Below, piece by piece: positions 4,696 to 42,775 of a stretch of 64,000 bases of DNA. The translations under genes were made by a program, and so were the position numbers. How positions within the stretch are numbered: position 1 is the stretch's first letter; each line of letters begins with the position of its first letter. This DNA is from Paraglaciecola arctica BSs20135 (lineage in GTDB: Bacteria; Pseudomonadota; Gammaproteobacteria; Enterobacterales; Alteromonadaceae). The DNA is taken from NCBI RefSeq assembly GCF_000314995.1, contig NZ_BAEO01000005.1, positions 1 through 64,000 on the forward strand, written 5' to 3'. The notes below the pieces were generated by a model, which did no database searches, was not told where the DNA came from, and saw only the letters and a list, made by a program, of their open reading frames with translations.

Positions 4696-5439
4696 TTACG
4701 CTTTTCTTGAGTATCGTGCGGTAGCAATGCCGAACAGGCCAAGACCAAGTAGGAACAGAGTCGCTGGCTCAGGAACATCGATGGTACCTAATTCGGTACC
4801 TACTTTGATTTTTAAGACGGCCTCTACCTCAGCAAATGTAGTAGCTACAAAATCCAGACCGGTAAGATTCCAACCACAATTAGCAAAAGCACCAATGCCC
4901 AGACAATTTACCGCCGAATACCCTGCCGCAAGCGCACTCGTTGTGGCCGCTGTTGGATCTGTTCCAGTATTATGGGCGCCGTCAGTAGAAACATCGATGA
5001 GTTTCGTAAAATCTACTGCAAAGTCAGTTGCTGCAAACCCTGCCAAATACGCGTCCATATCGCTTTGTGAAAGAGCAACCCCACCTCCAATGTTAGTGGC
5101 ACTATTCGGTTGACTCATGCTTGCAATACTCGCGAGTAGTGTGGCACGATCGGTTTCATCATTCAGGCGGATTGCCGTTTGCTCTAAAATTGTACCGCTT
5201 GAAAATTGTATGACATTAACTACCACACTACCGTCGGCTTTAACGACACTTGCATCGCCAAATACTGCACCATAGGCGGCAACTTGAGTAGCGAAATCGG
5301 CACTTGATATACTGCCCGAGCCGTCGATAACAATACCCAGCGCGGTTTTGATTAGTGCTGCATTTGCCAAATTGCTCCCTAACGTTAAGGGTATAGCCAA
5401 CAATAAGCCGACTAGATATTTTTTTATTCTATTCTTCAT
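4696..5439 (-). CDS. DUF1194-like VWA-domain protein with PEP-CTERM sorting signal
   Basis: 247 residues. A signal peptide (to about residue 28, LANAA) is followed by a von Willebrand A fold with the MIDAS motif DGSGSIS, a later S-ATNIGGG segment and D-V-S-T-D-G, consistent with metal binding and the DUF1194 group. The C-terminus VPEPATLFLLGLGLFGIA plus a basic tail (RYSRKA) is a typical PEP-CTERM sorting signal, which is recognised by an exosortase and links the protein to exopolysaccharide or biofilm export. No exosortase gene is in this window. Monocistronic, with its own terminator. Function beyond surface or secreted adhesion is inference. Confidence 0.85.
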   Translation of the reverse strand: MKNRIKKYLVGLLLAIPLTLGSNLANAALIKTALGIVIDGSGSISSADFATQVAAYGAVFGDASVVKADGSVVVNVIQFSSGTILEQTAIRLNDETDRATLLASIASMSQPNSATNIGGGVALSQSDMDAYLAGFAATDFAVDFTKLIDVSTDGAHNTGTDPTAATTSALAAGYSAVNCLGIGAFANCGWNLTGLDFVATTFAEVEAVLKIKVGTELGTIDVPEPATLFLLGLGLFGIATARYSRKA

Positions 5440-36407: not shown

Positions 36408-36794
36408 TTATAGATGTAACTTAATTGACTGCTGGTCTGCTTGGGGCATTTTACTCACTACCAACATATAAGAGTTATCCATCATCCGCTGAATTTCCCC
36501 TTGAGGCACTGACCCATCAAGTTTTACGGTATTCCAGTGTACTTTGCTCATATGGTAACCGGGGATAATGGATGGGAAGATATCGCGAAGCATTATCGCT
36601 TCTTGAGGATCACATTTAAGGTTCATCCAGCAAATATCATCACTTTCATTCTCACCTTTGCCCATTTTACCCACGGATAAAGTCGCGAACATTTTATGTT
36701 TAACTTTAAATACAGACACGTCTTTTCCAAAAGGAAAGGTTTCCACTGTAAAAGGTTTACTTAATAGGTATTCTCTAGCTTGTTGCCGATCCAT
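36408..36794 (-). CDS. MmcQ/YjbR family protein
   Basis: 128 residues of the YjbR fold: YLLSKPFTVETFPFGKDVSVFKVKHKMFATL near the N-terminus, then LKCDPQEAIMLRD and GYHMSKVHWNTVKLDGSVP, the family's conserved HW(N/I)TV segment. This CyaY-like double-wing fold is predicted to bind DNA, but its role is unknown. Transcribed 83 bases downstream of the RegA-like gene and could be its distal partner. Convergent with the MFS gene. Confidence 0.9.
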   Translation of the reverse strand: MDRQQAREYLLSKPFTVETFPFGKDVSVFKVKHKMFATLSVGKMGKGENESDDICWMNLKCDPQEAIMLRDIFPSIIPGYHMSKVHWNTVKLDGSVPQGEIQRMMDNSYMLVVSKMPQADQQSIKLHL

Positions 36795-36877
36795 CTACTT
36801 TCCTTAATATACATTCATATTATCAGTATAAGCATTTAAACAACTTTCTATAAGCTATTTTGGAGCCGATTACCATT

Positions 36878-37411
36878 TCATGCACTAGTTGGCTTTTTTA
36901 ACAGTTTGCGCTGTAAGGTTCTGCGATGCATACCAAGCTGTCTAGCGGTAACCGATATATTCCCGAGATTTGATTTTAACACTTGTTGAATATGTTCCCA
37001 TTCAAGTCGAGACGGAGACATAATATTTGTTTCATTATTTTTATTTTCTGGATTTTCTTTATTATCACCATCTAACATTGTCAATAAGGTTTTAGTATCA
37101 ACAGGCTTAGATAAATAGTCATCGGCACCTGCTTTAATTGCTTCTACAGCCGTGGCAATACTGGCGTAGCCTGTCAGTAAAATAATTCTAGATTTGGGTA
37201 ATTTCGCCCTTAATTGAGGTAAAATAATCAAGCTATTTTGGTTGCCTACTTTAAGGTCCAAAATGAGATGTGTTGGACTATGCTGTTCTGCTAAGGCTAG
37301 ACCCTGCTCATTGCTAATTCCATGGATACACTTATAACCATAATGTGACAAACGCCTCAGTAATATATCTGCGAAGCTCTGCTCATCTTCAATCAATAAT
37401 AAAGATTTCAC
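36878..37411 (-). CDS. regA: Response regulator of the RegA/PrrA/ActR family
   Basis: 177 residues. Receiver domain 1-118: acidic pocket LLIEDEQS, phosphoacceptor aspartate in HLILDLKVG, T in LLTGYASIA, lysine in LSKPVD. The C-terminus SRLEWEHIQQVLKSN ... ARQLGMHRRTLQRKLLKK is the Fis-type HTH that is nearly invariant in RegA, PrrA, ActR and RoxR. It should control genes by redox state. Its ATG overlaps the stop of the kinase gene by 4 bases, so the pair is one unit. A RegA-type palindrome lies in front of the operon at 42605-42631. Confidence 0.9.
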   Translation of the reverse strand: MKSLLLIEDEQSFADILLRRLSHYGYKCIHGISNEQGLALAEQHSPTHLILDLKVGNQNSLIILPQLRAKLPKSRIILLTGYASIATAVEAIKAGADDYLSKPVDTKTLLTMLDGDNKENPENKNNETNIMSPSRLEWEHIQQVLKSNLGNISVTARQLGMHRRTLQRKLLKKPTSA

Positions 37412-38640
37412 GATAGCTCCACCAAGTTCATGACAACTTCAACGACTGCCCCTTCTTCAGAATGATTATATAAGCGAAATTGTGCGCCCAATCGTTCTAA
37501 CGTTGCGTGGCTAAGTAACACTCCCATACCAAAACCCTGATCGCTTTGTACTATAGTAGAGCCTAATTCAAGTAAAGCTTCCTCGGATAAACCTTTACCG
37601 AAGTCACGAATAGTAATAACTAGTTGTTGCTGTTCTATTTTACTCGACATCTCAATCTTGTGGTTATTATTTTGTTTTGAAGCTTGCACCGCATTTTGTA
37701 CTAAATTTAGTAAGGCTGGAAATAGTGTGGAATCGGTATACACAGCGAAAGCTTCAGAATTATCAAATTGATAACATACCTGAACATCAGCAAAATTTAG
37801 CTGTATATCTTGCTGTAAATGAAAAAACAATTGGCTTAATGGGATCTGACGTCTGCTATTTTGTTTTAACTCTTCTGACATGACTCGAAAATCCTGCAAA
37901 CGTTTACTACATAAACCTATCTGTTCTTTTAATTGAGCTAAAAATAGATTGTTGTGTTGCAACTCAAGTTCTTCTGTCAATAAATTTGCCGTGGCTAATG
38001 GCGTAGCCATTTGATGAGCAAATTGAGCTGCGGATGTACCAAGAGCAACCAATTGTTCTTGGCGTAATTGCTCCTCACGCAACTGACTCACTAATCGTTC
38101 TTGCTGACGCATAGCCCGAGCAAGTGATGCCACTATTAATACCACTACCAAAGCCGACAAAACAAAAGTTAACCACATACCAACAAAATGCTGTTGCATG
38201 TCAATCATATGCATTTGCTGATGATCAAGTGTAAATAACAAAGTCGAGTACGCTGCCAGCGCCATAAAAGTCACAAACAACAACCAAGGTTTCGGCAATG
38301 TTACTGCTGCAATAGCCACAGGTAACAGCAACAAAGAAACAAACGGATTAGTCGCTCCGTTAGAAAAATACAACAACAAAGTGAGAAACAATATATCAAG
38401 TGAAACTTGCAATAAAAACTCAATAGGATGGGCGTTACGATTGCCTTTATAATAATAAAACAAGGCAATATTAATCGCTAATTCTACTCCAACAATAATT
38501 TTAAGAGTGGTATATGGCAGCGAATATTCGAACCAAAGCTCCGCCACTAAAACAACCAATAATTGCAGAGCGATAAAACCATTGCGCAACTTAATTAATT
38601 GCAATAGCTGACGGTTAGTTTGCATATGAGACAAAGACAT
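37408..38640 (-). CDS. regB: Redox sensor histidine kinase of the RegB/PrrB family
   Basis: 410 residues. Six membrane helices (residues about 15-180) include the quinone-site segment SNGATNPFVSLLLLPVAI, the counterpart of GGxxNPF in RegB. The H-box is SAAQFAHQMATPLATANL, and QIGLCSKRLQDF places a cysteine where RegB has its redox-active one. N-box LLNLVQNAVQA and G-box DFGKGLSE complete the kinase. RegB senses the ubiquinone pool and cysteine redox state. Located 37 bases after the outer-membrane protein gene, so it appears to be the fifth gene of the copper operon, which is unusual for RegB. Confidence 0.88.
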   Translation of the reverse strand: MSLSHMQTNRQLLQLIKLRNGFIALQLLVVLVAELWFEYSLPYTTLKIIVGVELAINIALFYYYKGNRNAHPIEFLLQVSLDILFLTLLLYFSNGATNPFVSLLLLPVAIAAVTLPKPWLLFVTFMALAAYSTLLFTLDHQQMHMIDMQQHFVGMWLTFVLSALVVVLIVASLARAMRQQERLVSQLREEQLRQEQLVALGTSAAQFAHQMATPLATANLLTEELELQHNNLFLAQLKEQIGLCSKRLQDFRVMSEELKQNSRRQIPLSQLFFHLQQDIQLNFADVQVCYQFDNSEAFAVYTDSTLFPALLNLVQNAVQASKQNNNHKIEMSSKIEQQQLVITIRDFGKGLSEEALLELGSTIVQSDQGFGMGVLLSHATLERLGAQFRLYNHSEEGAVVEVVMNLVELS

Positions 38641-38677
38641 GGGGCGTTTAGATATTTTTAAGCAAAGTTACAAACAT

Positions 38678-39856
38678 TTATAACAGCTTATGCTGCCAAA
38701 CTAAACCTAGAGACCAACGACTTCCCTGCTGTTCATGGCTATCATCTTGATACCATTCGGTACGAAATTTAAAGTCTTGATAAAAATCCCATGTCCAAGC
38801 GACCGCCAATTTTTCAGGTTCAAATCCTTGGTTATGTAAACCGCTAGATTGGATAAATAATTGCGATGTTTGCGTAAAACTATTATCCACCACTAAACGT
38901 TCGTACTTAACTTGCAGGCTATGATTGTCTAAAGACAGACCAAATTGCAGCTTATAACCATCTTGTGTTGCCACAAAAACAGCACTTTGTGTTGTGTCGA
39001 CCAAGTGGGCGTCAATATCGGCGCGGATCCATTCAAATTCACCATTTAGAATAATGGGCTTAAATTTCCATTGCAGATTAGCAAACACCCCCATGGTTAA
39101 AGTATCACCGGTAAATTCCAAATCACTAGCACTAAGTTGCTCATCGCCGTGACTATGCCCTCCTTGATAACGTTGATCTGTGCGACTTTCAGCGCGACTG
39201 GACATTAACCAAGAGCCTAATTGAGCATTCAAACCGCCCTTCTTATATGGGTAATGAATATATAATGACGCAGCGCCGTCACCAGACGTCGCAGGCCAAT
39301 TATCTCCATTCCATATTTCAACACCTAAAATTAGACCGTATATATTACTACTGGCTCTGCCACCGATATCTATAAAATGTCGACCAAAAAACACGTCTGC
39401 TAATAAAGGAGATTCACTAAAAGCTCCCCCTGAAGCATGAAAATTAGCTGTTGGTGTAACCTTGGTAGACATTTTGCCTAATTCAAATAATAGAGGCTGA
39501 TCAAGCAACTCAGCACTCACCCCAAACCACAAGTTTTCTAACTCGACTTCGGTTGCTCCATCATGACTATGAGCCCCAACTTTAGCACTGACAAAATAAC
39601 GTTCTTGTACATTTAAATGACCCAACAATTGAACATCATCTAAACTAGCTCCTTGTTCCACAGGCAAAGCTTCACCGCCCATTAATACGCCGGGTAATTG
39701 CCACACTTGATCAGTTGGGTAAGCCTCATCACTTCGAAAAGTAACAGCCGTTTTAACAACTATTGAATCAGGCTGAGCGCTAGATTGCTGATTTTCATGA
39801 GCAAAGACTACCGTCGAAAATGCACAACACAACAGGGTAACAATATGATTTTTCAT
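38678..39856 (-). CDS. Outer-membrane beta-barrel protein in the MbnPH operon
   Basis: 392 residues. Signal peptide 1-19 (VVFAHENQ). The rest alternates hydrophobic and polar residues in strands (e.g. NVQERYFVSAKVGAH, LFELGKMSTKVTP, NIYGLILGVEIWNG, KLQFGLSLDNHSLQVKYERLV) as in porin-like barrels, ending WSLGLVWQHKLL. A His-rich loop (GGHSHGDEQ) may face the periplasm or surface. Start is 2 bases from the stop of the MbnH gene. I do not recognise a named family. Position between MbnH and RegBA suggests metal passage (inference). Confidence 0.7.
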   Translation of the reverse strand: MKNHIVTLLCCAFSTVVFAHENQQSSAQPDSIVVKTAVTFRSDEAYPTDQVWQLPGVLMGGEALPVEQGASLDDVQLLGHLNVQERYFVSAKVGAHSHDGATEVELENLWFGVSAELLDQPLLFELGKMSTKVTPTANFHASGGAFSESPLLADVFFGRHFIDIGGRASSNIYGLILGVEIWNGDNWPATSGDGAASLYIHYPYKKGGLNAQLGSWLMSSRAESRTDQRYQGGHSHGDEQLSASDLEFTGDTLTMGVFANLQWKFKPIILNGEFEWIRADIDAHLVDTTQSAVFVATQDGYKLQFGLSLDNHSLQVKYERLVVDNSFTQTSQLFIQSSGLHNQGFEPEKLAVAWTWDFYQDFKFRTEWYQDDSHEQQGSRWSLGLVWQHKLL

Positions 39857-39858
39857 TA

Positions 39859-41022
39859 TTATTCTTCAAATGGATCAGAAAATTTAGGGTTATTGATAAA
39901 TTTGTAATCGGTAAGAGATTCAAGAAAGGCTATCACTGCGTCGATTTCTTCATCTGTGGCAACAAAGGGTAGTATTAAGCCCGACTTCAAAGGACTTAAA
40001 TTACCATCTCCAGCATTTGGGCCGTTTTCAATTAAGCGACCTCCTCTAGCATAATGCTCAATCACTTCTCGTAATGTCGCAATACTGCCATCATGCATAT
40101 AAGGTGCGGTCAACTCTATATTACGTAAGCTTTGCGGGCGAAACATGCCGCGATCTGCCAAGTCTAACGTTAGGTCATACAAACCTTGATCTTCAGCAGG
40201 ATAACTCCCCTGCCCATCGACGTTGTATAATCCGTTGTTAAAAAATGGATATTGAATAGTACCTTCTGTGGTATTTGAATCACGATAAGACACAGAAAAA
40301 TTAATGCCAGTATGACAATGAAAACATTCAAATTTCTCACCGTTAAATAAACTAAATCCCCACTTTTGTTGTTCGGTTAAAGCTGTGGTATCACCCAATA
40401 AATACTGGTCATATGCGCTATCGGCGCTGATCATAGTGCGCAAAAAGCTAGCTAGAGAAAATATAACCTTATTAATGCTTGCACCTGTCTCACTGTCTGG
40501 AAAGGCTGCTGTAAACATTTTCACATAATCAGGATCACTATCAAATCGGGCAAGCACGTCATCGATATGTGGATCAGTCACCCCTAACTCAATTGGATTA
40601 TCTGCTCTAATGGGTACATTTAGCTGGTCTTCTAACTCTAAAAAGCCATTGTTGCTCCAAGTAAAAGTTGAATGGTAAACCACATTAGACAAGCTTTGAC
40701 TGTTCCGAGTAAGTTGGTGACCCGTAGAACCAAATGGCGTTTCCACCGCATCACTAAAGGCTAGCGCCTGAAAGTGACAAGAAGAACAAGATTGAGTTTG
40801 ATTAGCAGATAAGTTTTTGTCATAGAATAAAAACCTACCCAGTGCTATTTTCTCTGCGGTTAAGGGGTTATATTCCGGCACTGCGGGAGCAGAAATATGT
40901 GCTGGCAGCTCAAGCAGATCTCTTATGGATTGCTGTTGTGAACTTTCTTCTATTGAAGTAGTTGATGATTGATTACAGCTCATCAAAATACCCAATATAA
41001 AACTTACTACAATAAACTTCAT
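39859..41022 (-). CDS. mbnH: Di-haem peroxidase-like enzyme MbnH (metallo-mystery pair)
   Basis: 387 residues. Lipoprotein-like signal (ILMSC) then two c-type haem sites, CSSCH (in NQTQSCSSCHFQALAFSD) and CFHCH (in GEKFECFHCHTGINF), in a CcpA/MauG-type scaffold, with LRNIELTAPYMHDGSIATLREVIEHYA near the C-terminus. MbnH enzymes are known to turn a tryptophan of the partner MbnP into kynurenine, creating its copper site. The partner is the next gene upstream, 49 bases away. Likely periplasmic and membrane-tethered. Confidence 0.9.
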   Translation of the reverse strand: MKFIVVSFILGILMSCNQSSTTSIEESSQQQSIRDLLELPAHISAPAVPEYNPLTAEKIALGRFLFYDKNLSANQTQSCSSCHFQALAFSDAVETPFGSTGHQLTRNSQSLSNVVYHSTFTWSNNGFLELEDQLNVPIRADNPIELGVTDPHIDDVLARFDSDPDYVKMFTAAFPDSETGASINKVIFSLASFLRTMISADSAYDQYLLGDTTALTEQQKWGFSLFNGEKFECFHCHTGINFSVSYRDSNTTEGTIQYPFFNNGLYNVDGQGSYPAEDQGLYDLTLDLADRGMFRPQSLRNIELTAPYMHDGSIATLREVIEHYARGGRLIENGPNAGDGNLSPLKSGLILPFVATDEEIDAVIAFLESLTDYKFINNPKFSDPFEE

Positions 41023-41071
41023 ATAGTCTCTTACAAAATTCAGGGGTTAACTAAGGTCAACCCCAATTCAC

Positions 41072-42028
41072 TTATTCAGCGGTAACGGTGGAATTATCTG
41101 TTGCGACACTTTCGCCGGTTTCAGTAGATATCCCCATATTTTCAAAGATAGGACCACAGTCTGCTTGCATGGCAACTGGAGCTGAATGACAACTTACTCC
41201 TGGCACATCAACACCTGCTGCTGTGGGAGCAAACCTTAAACCGGCTAAAACGTTCTGCATATCAATCACCACTGTATTGATAGCAGGGTTAAAATTATTT
41301 AACGCTACTTTTGGCGTATTGACGTAGTCACATTCATCTTGAGTCTCAAGGGCTAACAAACCATCACCTGTGCAACTCTTACTACCAATATGCAATAAGC
41401 CATTACCAGCGACACCATTGGTATCTTCAATGGTAAAGTTCATAAGAAAATGACGATAACCACTGGCCCATGACCAGTACATTTCATTTAAAGGAGAAGG
41501 TGCGTCTTCAACTGAAGTAGTGGCAATAACTTCTTTCATCATTGCTTGAGGCAAGCCCAAATCGAATGTAACTTTAGCCACACCGGTATCTATATAAGTA
41601 CCAGAGATCAGGCTATTTGTACGCGATGTACCGGAAAGTGAATCTAAAGCACATGATCCAGTAGCATTGCTGGTCAAGTCGATTAAACCAACAAAACCTT
41701 GTTCATTTTGATACTGAAAGTCGTTTTCATCTAAGGTGGTTTCAATCTCAACATCATAAAGGTCGTAAAACTTGATGTTGCTTACATAAAAACGTAAATC
41801 ACTGACGCCGACACTATAACTTTGATCATCGCCATAACCTGAATACATAGTGTCACAATCAATTTCCTCTACTCCACTCATGGCTTTAAAATTAAGACTA
41901 AAAGCACGAGGAACTAAATTTTTCACATCGTCATTGTCTCTAGAACTACTTCCTCCACAAGCACTTAATAAAGACGCAGCCAATAAGGAGGCGATAGTGA
42001 AAGGTTTAAAATTGACATTTAATTGCAT
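41072..42028 (-). CDS. mbnP: MbnP family copper-binding lipoprotein
   Basis: 318 residues. Lipoprotein signal with lipobox LSAC (residue about 24) followed by GGSSS. Conserved MbnP landmarks: SLNFKAMSGVEEIDC start, SDLRFYVSNIKFYD, LIDLTSNATGSC, and NEMYWSWASGYRHFLMNF, which holds tryptophans that include the expected kynurenine precursor. Several cysteines (SKSC, DEC, VSCHSAP, ADC) fit the 'four-Cys' metallo-mystery description. It would bind copper in the periplasm after modification by the adjacent MbnH. Sits between the PCuAC chaperone and MbnH genes. Confidence 0.9.
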   Translation of the reverse strand: MQLNVNFKPFTIASLLAASLLSACGGSSSRDNDDVKNLVPRAFSLNFKAMSGVEEIDCDTMYSGYGDDQSYSVGVSDLRFYVSNIKFYDLYDVEIETTLDENDFQYQNEQGFVGLIDLTSNATGSCALDSLSGTSRTNSLISGTYIDTGVAKVTFDLGLPQAMMKEVIATTSVEDAPSPLNEMYWSWASGYRHFLMNFTIEDTNGVAGNGLLHIGSKSCTGDGLLALETQDECDYVNTPKVALNNFNPAINTVVIDMQNVLAGLRFAPTAAGVDVPGVSCHSAPVAMQADCGPIFENMGISTETGESVATDNSTVTAE

Positions 42029-42058
42029 GATAATTTCTCTTATAAATAGATTTAAGTG

Positions 42059-42559
42059 TTAGTGGTGGGAGTGATTAGATGTAGCAGCATTAGGGGTTAA
42101 CCTTTCCTCAACCCAGACCTCTACTGTTATCTCACCACTGTGTTCGAAGCGTAATTCCATGGGAAATTTTTCACCTTCGACTAAAGGCGTTTTTAACCCA
42201 ACTAACATGATATGGCTGCCGCCAGGTATGAGTTCGAGACTATTTTCAGCGGGGATCAACAAACCACTATGCGCTTCACGCATCTTAGCCATGTTCTGAG
42301 AATATTCGGTTTGATGTATTTGAGCCAACTCAGCAATAGTTGATGGCACCTCTACTGACAATAGAAGTTCAGCTTGATGAGTTGGATTATTGATAACTAG
42401 ATAAACCGCTCCCGTTTTGACAACAGGTGCGGTTGGCCTCGCCCACGGATGATTAACTTCGATCTGGCCGGCATTAAAATCGTGAGCAAAAAGGCTAAAA
42501 GATAACAACAAAAAAGCCAAGATAAATGGCTTTAACATAAGGTCTATAAAGGCTTTCAA
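42059..42559 (-). CDS. PCu(A)C periplasmic copper chaperone
   Basis: 166 residues. Signal peptide to about 25 (SLFAHD). The DUF461/PCuAC domain has the copper site pieces: IHQTEYSQNMAKMREAHSG (H and M) and GGSHIMLVGL (HxM), i.e. the H(M)X10MX21HXM pattern. The C-terminal tail TSNHSHH adds possible metal ligands. Carries Cu(I) to acceptors such as cytochrome oxidase or, here, MbnP (inference). It is the first gene of a six-gene minus-strand run, 45 bases downstream of the palindrome at 42605-42631. Confidence 0.9.
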   Translation of the reverse strand: MKAFIDLMLKPFILAFLLLSFSLFAHDFNAGQIEVNHPWARPTAPVVKTGAVYLVINNPTHQAELLLSVEVPSTIAELAQIHQTEYSQNMAKMREAHSGLLIPAENSLELIPGGSHIMLVGLKTPLVEGEKFPMELRFEHSGEITVEVWVEERLTPNAATSNHSHH

Positions 42560-42604
42560 AATGAATTAACTCGTTTTTTTCAGCTATTATAGGGTCTTAT
42601 AGTT

Positions 42605-42631
42605 GTGCGACAATGTGACATATTGTCGCAC
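42605..42631 (-). promoter_or_regulatory. RegA/PrrA-type palindromic operator candidate
   Basis: GTGCGACAAT and ATTGTCGCAC are perfect 10-bp inverted arms separated by 7 bases. The half-sites GCGAC and GTCGC match the GCGNC/GNCGC words bound by RegA/PrrA/RegR regulators, though the spacer between half-sites (13) is longer than the usual examples. It lies 46 bases before the PCuAC start, and the operon's last genes encode RegB/RegA-like proteins. Confidence 0.55.
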
Positions 42632-42753: not shown

Positions 42754-42775
42754 AAAAGACAGTCGCCTGTCTTTT
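42754..42775 (-). terminator. Rho-independent terminator of the phosphoribosyltransferase gene
   Basis: AAAAGACAG-TCGC-CTGTCTTTT, a perfect 9-bp stem with flanking A/T runs, 39 bases after the stop. It separates this gene from the copper operon. Confidence 0.8.

Follow-up and report, generated by a model that had tools for sequence, protein, structure and literature searches.

A putative copper-acquisition operon of Paraglaciecola arctica joins MbnP/MbnH and a porin-like barrel to its own RegB/RegA-like switch

The window analyzed here is a stretch of 64,000 nucleotides from Paraglaciecola arctica BSs20135 (NZ_BAEO01000005.1, positions 1-64,000), and our subject is a minus-strand operon at 36408-42631 in which copper-handling genes stand together with a RegB/RegA-like two-component system. 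The original prediction had placed seven genes there, and all seven open reading frames (ORFs) are present, in the order PCuAC, MbnP, MbnH, a porin-like barrel, a RegB-like histidine kinase, a RegA-like response regulator and YjbR. The predicted gaps of 2-83 bases hold for the spacings of 30, 49, 2, 37 and 83 bases, but the kinase and regulator genes overlap by 4. The family assignments of PCuAC, MbnP, MbnH, the kinase and the regulator agree with profile searches. The PCuAC copper chaperone gene (42059..42559) matches PF04314 with 107 bits (cut-off 29) and starts at a TTG, with an ATG at 42538. MbnP (41072..42028) scores 233 bits with TIGR04052 (cut-off 140) and aligns to PDB 7l6g, keeping both Trp of the WxW motif (WSW aligned to WNW of 7l6g). 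The gene adjoining it encodes the di-haem enzyme MbnH (39859..41022; TIGR04039 477 bits, cut-off 363; PDB 6e1c, E 8e-101). In known pairs MbnH makes kynurenine from Trp in MbnP for copper binding, and it may do so here. The two genes resemble the known MbnP/MbnH (metallo-mystery) pair in being adjacent, in exceeding both curated cut-offs and in keeping WxW; unlike the known pairs, they share their operon with PCuAC, a RegBA-type pair and a porin-like barrel, and none of its seven ORFs is a methanobactin gene. Next come the outer-membrane barrel (38678..39856), modeled with 16 strands, the kinase (37408..38640), with six predicted membrane helices and ActS/PrrB/RegB (NF033792) as its best match at 171 bits (below the cut-off of 350), and the regulator (36878..37411), in which a receiver domain (PF00072) is combined with a Fis-type helix-turn-helix (HTH; PF02954) and whose best match is ActR/PrrA/RegA (NF033791), with 151 bits, below the cut-off of 250. 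That these genes form one operon, as had been proposed, agrees with our promoter scan, which gave no promoter-like match in the 37-base gap before the kinase gene (38640-38678).

A palindrome of the form GTGCGACAAT-N7-ATTGTCGCAC had been predicted in front of the operon as a RegA-type site. It is exact at 42605..42631, having no strand of its own, and did not appear in any of 100 shuffles, but comparison with eight relatives showed that this outer form is not the conserved unit: the right arm ATTGTCGCAC is nearly kept in one relative (L078; L and G numbers denote fetched loci and genomes of the comparison sets, our own genome being G000) and is lost in the other seven, so we rejected the outer palindrome as the operator. 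What is kept before eight other mbnPH-barrel loci is an inner box, TGCGACAATATGTCACA (42614..42630, minus strand), of the type GCGAC-N5-GTCRC. Its halves TGCGAC and GTCRCA lie five bases apart on the 5' side of the first gene in the window and in the eight related loci, although in L075 they stand in the opposite order, being read from the other side. The predicted layout, with GCGAC and GTCGC half-sites 13 bases apart, therefore had to be replaced by one with half-sites 5 apart. The conserved element, TGCGACA-NNN-TGTCRCA, directly abuts a -35-like hexamer, TTGTCG (42608..42613, minus strand), which with the -10 hexamer TATAAT (42586..42591, minus strand) forms the best promoter-like match of the region scanned (TTGTCG-16-TATAAT, 10 of 12 positions). 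The -10 hexamer follows the box by 22 bases, a spacing that is equal in L078, L238, L079 and L240. In five of the seven relatives that otherwise lack the right arm, its TTG is retained, which fits a reading of these bases as the start of the -35. A terminator-like hairpin (42754..42775, minus strand; consensus match only) after the preceding phosphoribosyltransferase gene sets the operon apart from it, and together with the promoter match it marks this as the likely start of the operon.

The same arrangement is found more widely. We oriented 57 promoters by hand, with 0 to 2 mismatches to the box, close relatives included and L147, the 58th, left out, and obtained the consensus TGCGACA-NNN-TGTCGCA. 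Position 7 is A in 55/57 and position 11 is T in 53/57, and both positions lay outside the pattern that was searched. A TATAAT-like hexamer (at least 5 of 6) starts 39-42 bases from the box start in 24 of the 57 promoters; elsewhere such a hexamer begins in 2.9 promoters per offset on average and never in more than 8. From this spacing the center of the box is placed near -43, as would be expected for an activator that touches RNA polymerase at -35.

The box also follows the regulator across genomes. Among 118 genomes, our own included, 49 have a RegA-like regulator at E ≤ 1e-18 (RegA-positive) and 69 do not (RegA-negative), the best 29 candidates being scored where more existed. The exact sequence TGCGAC-N5-GTCGCA occurs in 32/49 RegA-positive and 6/69 RegA-negative genomes (p 7e-11; the Fisher tests used here ignore kinship), compared with 17/49 and 14/69 for a reversed control pattern (p 0.09). 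When A7 and T11 are also required, the counts become 30/49 and 0/69; by site, 39 of 47 exact boxes in RegA-positive genomes carry both bases, against none of the 6 in RegA-negative genomes, where four of those six sites lie inside ORFs. It is conceivable that another transcription factor binds the box and that the co-occurrence reflects kinship alone, since a long palindrome would suit other dimeric regulators too. We consider this very improbable: the box tracks the regulator even within the genus of the window (4/8 RegA-positive versus 0/14 RegA-negative genomes, p 0.0096) and at the promoters of TonB receptors described below, it precedes the kinase gene itself in L137, L143 and L150 (and, with two mismatches, in L140), and it matches a published RegA site, GCGACCGTTCGTCGC at ccoN, which is among the Rhodobacter capsulatus RegA sites found by chromatin immunoprecipitation (ChIP; PMC5359404). 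In keeping with this, the recognition helix of the window regulator reads MHRRTLQRKL where 26 classical RegA proteins read MHRRTLQRIL; MHRRTLQR is identical in the window protein and in 26/27 classical sequences, the 27th having no HTH in the alignment. Within its own genome the window regulator scores 150 bits and the next best protein 66 bits, matching in the receiver domain only. The original prediction that the operon is regulated by its own RegA-like protein is thus well supported comparatively, by co-occurrence, box position, the ChIP-site match and the equal recognition helix, although the putative operator is the inner N5 box and not the one first proposed.

The kinase departs from RegB in the part that would face the periplasm. 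We compared 44 kinases of the order (that of the window and 43 relatives, from 44 of the 49 RegA-positive genomes; G004, G035, G063, G086 and G094 were not fetched around regA) with 29 RegB proteins from loci over the NF033792 cut-off, one of the 30 classical loci lacking a usable frame. The loop between transmembrane helices 5 and 6 of the window kinase (DHQQMHMIDMQQHFV, 38182..38226, minus strand; loop sequence DHQQMHMIDMQQH) is rich in His and Met and is a candidate periplasmic copper site. At least two His are present in this loop in 44/44 kinases of the order and in 0/29 RegB proteins. On average the loop holds 5.3 His and Met in the order kinases, or 32% of its residues as compared with 4.6% in the rest of the protein, and 40/44 have at least three; the RegB average is 0.5. 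A loop poor in His and Met is a RegB trait seen in this analysis and not a published definition, and the window kinase does not show it. In an AlphaFold2 model (pLDDT, the predicted local distance difference test, 79; pTM, the predicted template modeling score, 0.54), helices 117-137 and 148-228 flank the loop, which is expected on the periplasmic side because the last helix continues into the cytosolic part.

Elsewhere the kinase has kept much of RegB. Its His box FAHQMATPLAT and its Cys motif LCSKRL agree with the RegB His box and redox Cys (Cys265 of R. capsulatus), and the Cys column is filled in 38/44 order kinases and 29/29 RegB proteins. At the RegB quinone motif GGxxNPF, the window kinase reads NGATNPF, with the first G changed; N is present in 41/44 and P in 17/44 order kinases. 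These features would also suit an ordinary redox RegBA that senses only quinone or oxygen, with the copper genes forming part of a low-oxygen or denitrification regulon, and this alternative gains from the NosR-like genes found behind the box in five genomes, from the binding of RegR to the nosR promoter in Bradyrhizobium japonicum (PMC4064962) and from the cotranscription of Group 1 RegBA with the copper chaperone gene senC (PMC9147068). However, the division of the loop between the two groups, the frequent loss of P from the quinone motif and the fact that the only extended box with at most one mismatch in our own genome stands at the copper operon argue against it, and we regard it as unlikely, though the most serious competitor. 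To judge from these features, the kinase resembles a sensor of copper more than an ordinary redox-sensing RegB.

The regulator differs from classical RegA in a corresponding way. RegBA had been taken as usually tied to respiration or photosynthesis; a link to copper was in fact already in print, through senC and through copper binding by RegA, since R. capsulatus RegA dimerises with copper and oxygen through Cys156 (PMC9147068). That mode of copper binding is inapplicable to the window protein, which lacks Cys156. The residue is present in the 26 classical sequences aligned, and among the 44 order regulators a Cys at column 156 was seen by eye in L140 only. The copper input may therefore have moved from the regulator to the kinase. 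In sum, the pair shares with RegB/RegA (PrrBA, ActSR, RegSR) of Alphaproteobacteria its domain order, the His box, the cytosolic Cys column and nosR as a target, along with an almost identical recognition helix and a site of the GCGAC-N5-GTCGC type; it is unlike them in its scores below the equivalog cut-offs, its His/Met loop, the missing Cys156, the absence of senC from the operon and a regulon that perhaps consists of a single operon.

This last point follows from a search of the own genome for further boxes. No site but that of the window fits TGCGAC-N5-GTCRCA without mismatch, and no other comes within one mismatch of the extended consensus. With one mismatch to the shorter pattern there are 13 forward and 7 reverse sites against 12 and 13 in the control; because these counts do not clearly exceed the control, a wider regulon cannot be claimed from them. 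For the outer pattern (8-base arms, N11), up to three mismatches give 16 sites against 7 in the reversed control, and the window site alone has fewer than two. Since no second good box was found in this strain, its regulon may be the operon alone.

In relatives, the box stands before other genes, most often those of TonB receptors. Copper-receptor-like genes, defined by TIGR01778 at E ≤ 1e-30 among the best candidates scored per genome (9 of 48 in our own), occur in 31/49 RegA-positive and 10/69 RegA-negative genomes. When the best such gene of each genome was taken for the promoter test, the box with at most one mismatch preceded it in 29/31 RegA-positive and 0/10 RegA-negative genomes, and the remaining two RegA-positive genomes have it with two mismatches. 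The receptor lies within 8 kb of regA in 19/49 RegA-positive genomes, and L125 (687 bits) and L144 (607 bits) exceed the TIGR01778 cut-off of 472. Also behind the box are the NosR-like genes mentioned above (two scanned, with 1074 and 1072 bits against a cut-off of 1000, the rest recognized by eye), five PepSY_TM-like genes (L203, L205, L206, L209 and L220; four scanned, three over the Pfam cut-off), three PF13557-type barrels beside regBA (L141 8682-9863, L139 6516-7586, L134 3501-4610) and a few other genes. The PepSY_TM-like genes are perhaps copper-related like CrpH; in Bordetella and relatives, copper receptors are known to have partners of the PepSY_TM and PCuAC kinds (PMC12914433, PMC13038864). 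The barrels of L141 and L134 carry extreme Met/His-rich stretches and may be a third kind of outer-membrane copper protein. L305, from another genome of the class, has exact TGCGAC-N5-GTCGCA boxes at 4925 and 6972, which precede a kinase gene and a TonB receptor that best fits siderophore models.

Kinases that respond to copper excess, such as CusS and CopS, typically have His/Met-rich sensors in the periplasm, and from the loop alone one might suppose that the operon answers copper excess, with MbnP, PCuAC and the barrel binding or exporting copper for detoxification. Against this, the co-regulated genes of relatives serve uptake and use (TonB receptor, nosR). ORF and family scans of the seven operon genes gave no efflux ATPase or copper oxidase, nor was one found among those box-proximal genes that were scanned, which are part of the whole. 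CorA and CorB genes go down in copper (PMC3621798), and the CrtA operon, with CrtA and CrpH, goes up in copper starvation (PMC13038864). Because of these expression data from other systems, and because the co-regulated genes elsewhere import or use copper, we prefer induction by shortage and hold a detoxifying role to be improbable.

The original prediction had also raised the co-occurrence of mbnPH, PCuAC and regBA, and linked sets were indeed found in several relatives, but not a generic link between MbnPH and RegBA. MbnP is present in 40/118 genomes, and linked mbnP-mbnH-barrel-regBA sets were seen in our own genome, G015 (L078), G070 (L077) and G056 (L081). When named genomes were scanned with the barrel, seven loci came up, in Paraglaciecola arctica, Aliiglaciecola lipolytica, Colwellia echini, Colwellia sp. 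E2M01, two Psychrosphaera and Gayadomonas joobiniege (four also belong to the 118-genome set, as G015, G058, G056 and G070). The box with at most one mismatch is present in 7/7; regBA stands beside the barrel in five, both Colwellia loci being without an adjoining regBA. Similarly, the mbnP-mbnH-barrel set of G040 carries the box, and regBA lies at another place in that genome. A generic MbnPH-RegBA link was rejected because, of 40 MbnP-centered stretches (fetched from 45 matches after four weak ones and the window itself had been set aside), only L075, L077, L078, L079 and L081 have the box with at most one mismatch; all five have the barrel and all are in RegA-positive genomes. G071 (L076) has mbnP-mbnH-barrel-PCuAC with neither a RegA-like match nor the box, and in this locus, considered as a case of CruR, the upstream ORF has no Pfam match. 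Nor is the pairing of RegBA-type genes with copper genes peculiar to MbnPH; it occurs in many genomes of the order, mostly with TonB-copper-receptor-like genes. The six linked kinases form one supported group (100/99) together with L115, whose neighborhood lacks the set, and from this grouping we consider that the MbnPH-porin set was probably captured once, with a loss afterwards. A copper-receptor-like match was found in 0/6 genomes with boxed mbnPH and in 31/43 other RegA-positive genomes (p 0.0013; best 9 candidates per genome), and in our own genome (G000) no TIGR01778 match at E ≤ 1e-20 appeared among the best 9 of 48 candidates. The best reading is that MbnPH and the porin stand in place of the usual TonB receptor in the window operon.

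In two of the named genomes the surroundings of the set are of separate interest. In Aliiglaciecola lipolytica (L238 2916-5006), a NosR-like gene (654 bits, cut-off 1000) lies directly upstream of the PCuAC-mbnPH operon. In Gayadomonas joobiniege (L243), the record that carries mbnPH-barrel-regBA has the title plasmid pG7 and a length of 769 kb, and an AraC-type gene immediately precedes mbnP.

The barrel itself has no Pfam or NCBIfam match at E ≤ 0.01 and no match to a TonB-receptor family. Its AlphaFold2 model (pLDDT 75) has the 16 strands, and the best Foldseek matches are porins, with a best E of 2e-9, TM scores of 0.4-0.6 and an identity of about 7-14%. His 20, 98, 140, 234 and 236 are conserved in 9/9 aligned barrels. 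His 20 follows an invariant Ala at the likely end of the signal peptide, and a similar His is found in the PCuAC of the operon, so that the mature barrel and PCuAC may both start with His, a possible copper ligand. Barrels of more than 450 bits in relatives, as well as those of G040 (195 bits) and the class locus L321, adjoin MbnH; near the weaker barrels of eight class loci (L322-L329), MbnH was not seen within the short flanks. G105 holds a 254-bit barrel whose neighbors lie outside the fetched stretches.

Taking the locus and its relatives together, we think it probable that this is a self-contained copper-acquisition operon, whose kinase and regulator belong to a branch of RegB/RegA that is common in the order and in which a global redox system has become one that controls copper uptake across the outer membrane. 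In such an operon the kinase would sense periplasmic copper through the His/Met loop between its last two membrane helices, and would probably still integrate the quinone or redox state through the GxxNPF loop and the cytosolic Cys. Under copper shortage it would phosphorylate the RegA-like protein, which would then bind TGCGACA-NNN-TGTCRCA near -43 and, abutting the -35, activate the operon. The products would be the regulators themselves, the porin-like barrel for entry through the outer membrane, MbnP modified by MbnH to bind copper in the periplasm, and PCuAC to act as Cu(I) chaperone. In relatives, this kind of switch and box is found together with a TonB-type copper receptor, nosR, PepSY_TM proteins or PF13557-type barrels.

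Several observations weigh against this interpretation. Neither the kinase nor the regulator reaches the equivalog cut-off of RegB or RegA, and kinases of other families in the class stand between the two groups, 7/20 of them having at least two loop His. The co-occurrence tests take no account of kinship among genomes, 17/49 RegA-positive genomes have no exact box, and among regBA loci without mbnPH the box (at most one mismatch) lies within about 6 kb in 23/40; L115, of the same genus and with a kinase 67% identical, has none within 6 kb at two mismatches. In our own genome, two mismatches to the extended box give 14 sites against 4 in the reversed control. Eleven of the 13 besides the window site are inside ORFs, and the two intergenic ones precede a secreted 452-aa protein and a 286-aa protein, which makes a wider regulon possible; no copper gene is among the neighbors legible by eye. 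Most receptors score below the TIGR01778 cut-off, which 7/118 genomes exceed, and in G022 a further receptor-like gene (L288) lacks the box even at three mismatches. Because the receptor search scored the best candidates only, the missing receptor is not proven absent. The boxed receptors L143, L150 and L305 fit siderophore models better than copper ones, and RegBA of Methylomonas drives iron uptake (PMC13274454); the signal could accordingly be another metal or the redox state instead of copper. The article on CorA and CorB also states that MbnP has no marked similarity to CorA (PMC3621798).

Two further known systems are close to this one. In CruR-CrtA-CrpH of Bordetella, copper likewise enters through the outer membrane, PepSY_TM or PCuAC proteins are partners and control is by copper; CruR operons can include MbnPH-like genes (PMC12914433, PMC13038864, PMC9426467). 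Control in Bordetella is exerted post-transcriptionally by an upstream ORF, whereas here a two-component system and a DNA box would be responsible; no coding-strand ORF of at least 70 aa, such as a DUF2946 upstream ORF of the CruR type, lies between the promoter and PCuAC, and the CrtA article mentions neither RegA nor RegB in its main text. RegBA of Methylomonas sp. DH-1 is similar in controlling metal uptake, a TonB receptor included, but unlike the window system it is concerned with iron (feo) and methanol redox stress; the main text of that article (PMC13274454) does not contain 'consensus', 'binding motif' or GCGNC. Links of RegA with copper and of RegR with nosR, and the presence of MbnPH-like genes in CruR operons, have been published before. 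A literature search mostly without subscription papers, which does not show absence in print, gave no RegBA-type pair as a dedicated copper-import regulator, nor its box, its His/Met loop or the union of such a pair with MbnPH and a porin.

A broader proposal, of which we are a little less than half persuaded, would extend this to the whole order: RegB kinases would have been rebuilt as periplasmic copper sensors by the His/Met loop, and RegA partners, nearly all without Cys156, would run a compact copper-import regulon through one box. Its outer-membrane part would be interchangeable (TonB receptor, Met/His-rich barrel, or MbnPH with porin), and in the window strain the regulon would have shrunk to one operon with its own regulators, in which porin and MbnPH replace the TonB receptor. 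If so, the set in this strain would be a TonB-independent route of copper scavenging. Little is known of how bacteria control their copper import, for which the CruR paper describes a post-transcriptional switch, and a dedicated two-component system with a defined box across a marine order would give a handle on copper acquisition. It would also inform the copper supply of N2O reductase and the role of MbnPH outside methanobactin producers, and would offer a clear case of a redox sensor family that acquired a metal-sensing loop.

Three minor features remain. The last gene of the region, YjbR/MmcQ (36408..36794, minus strand; PF04237), lies 3' of regA in the window and in L078, but regA is not followed by it in L077, L081 and L238; the L241 stretch ends too early to judge. 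YjbR is unlikely to belong to the module, and the conserved core therefore comprises at most six genes. Our own genome has a second MbnP/MbnH pair of another type (G000 contig C55 36502-37218, L086), which has no adjoining barrel and no box with up to two mismatches in the fetched stretch. Between mbnP and mbnH in the window there is a weak terminator-like hairpin (41043..41064, minus strand; consensus match only), a possible site of attenuation that could set the amount of MbnP above that of MbnH.

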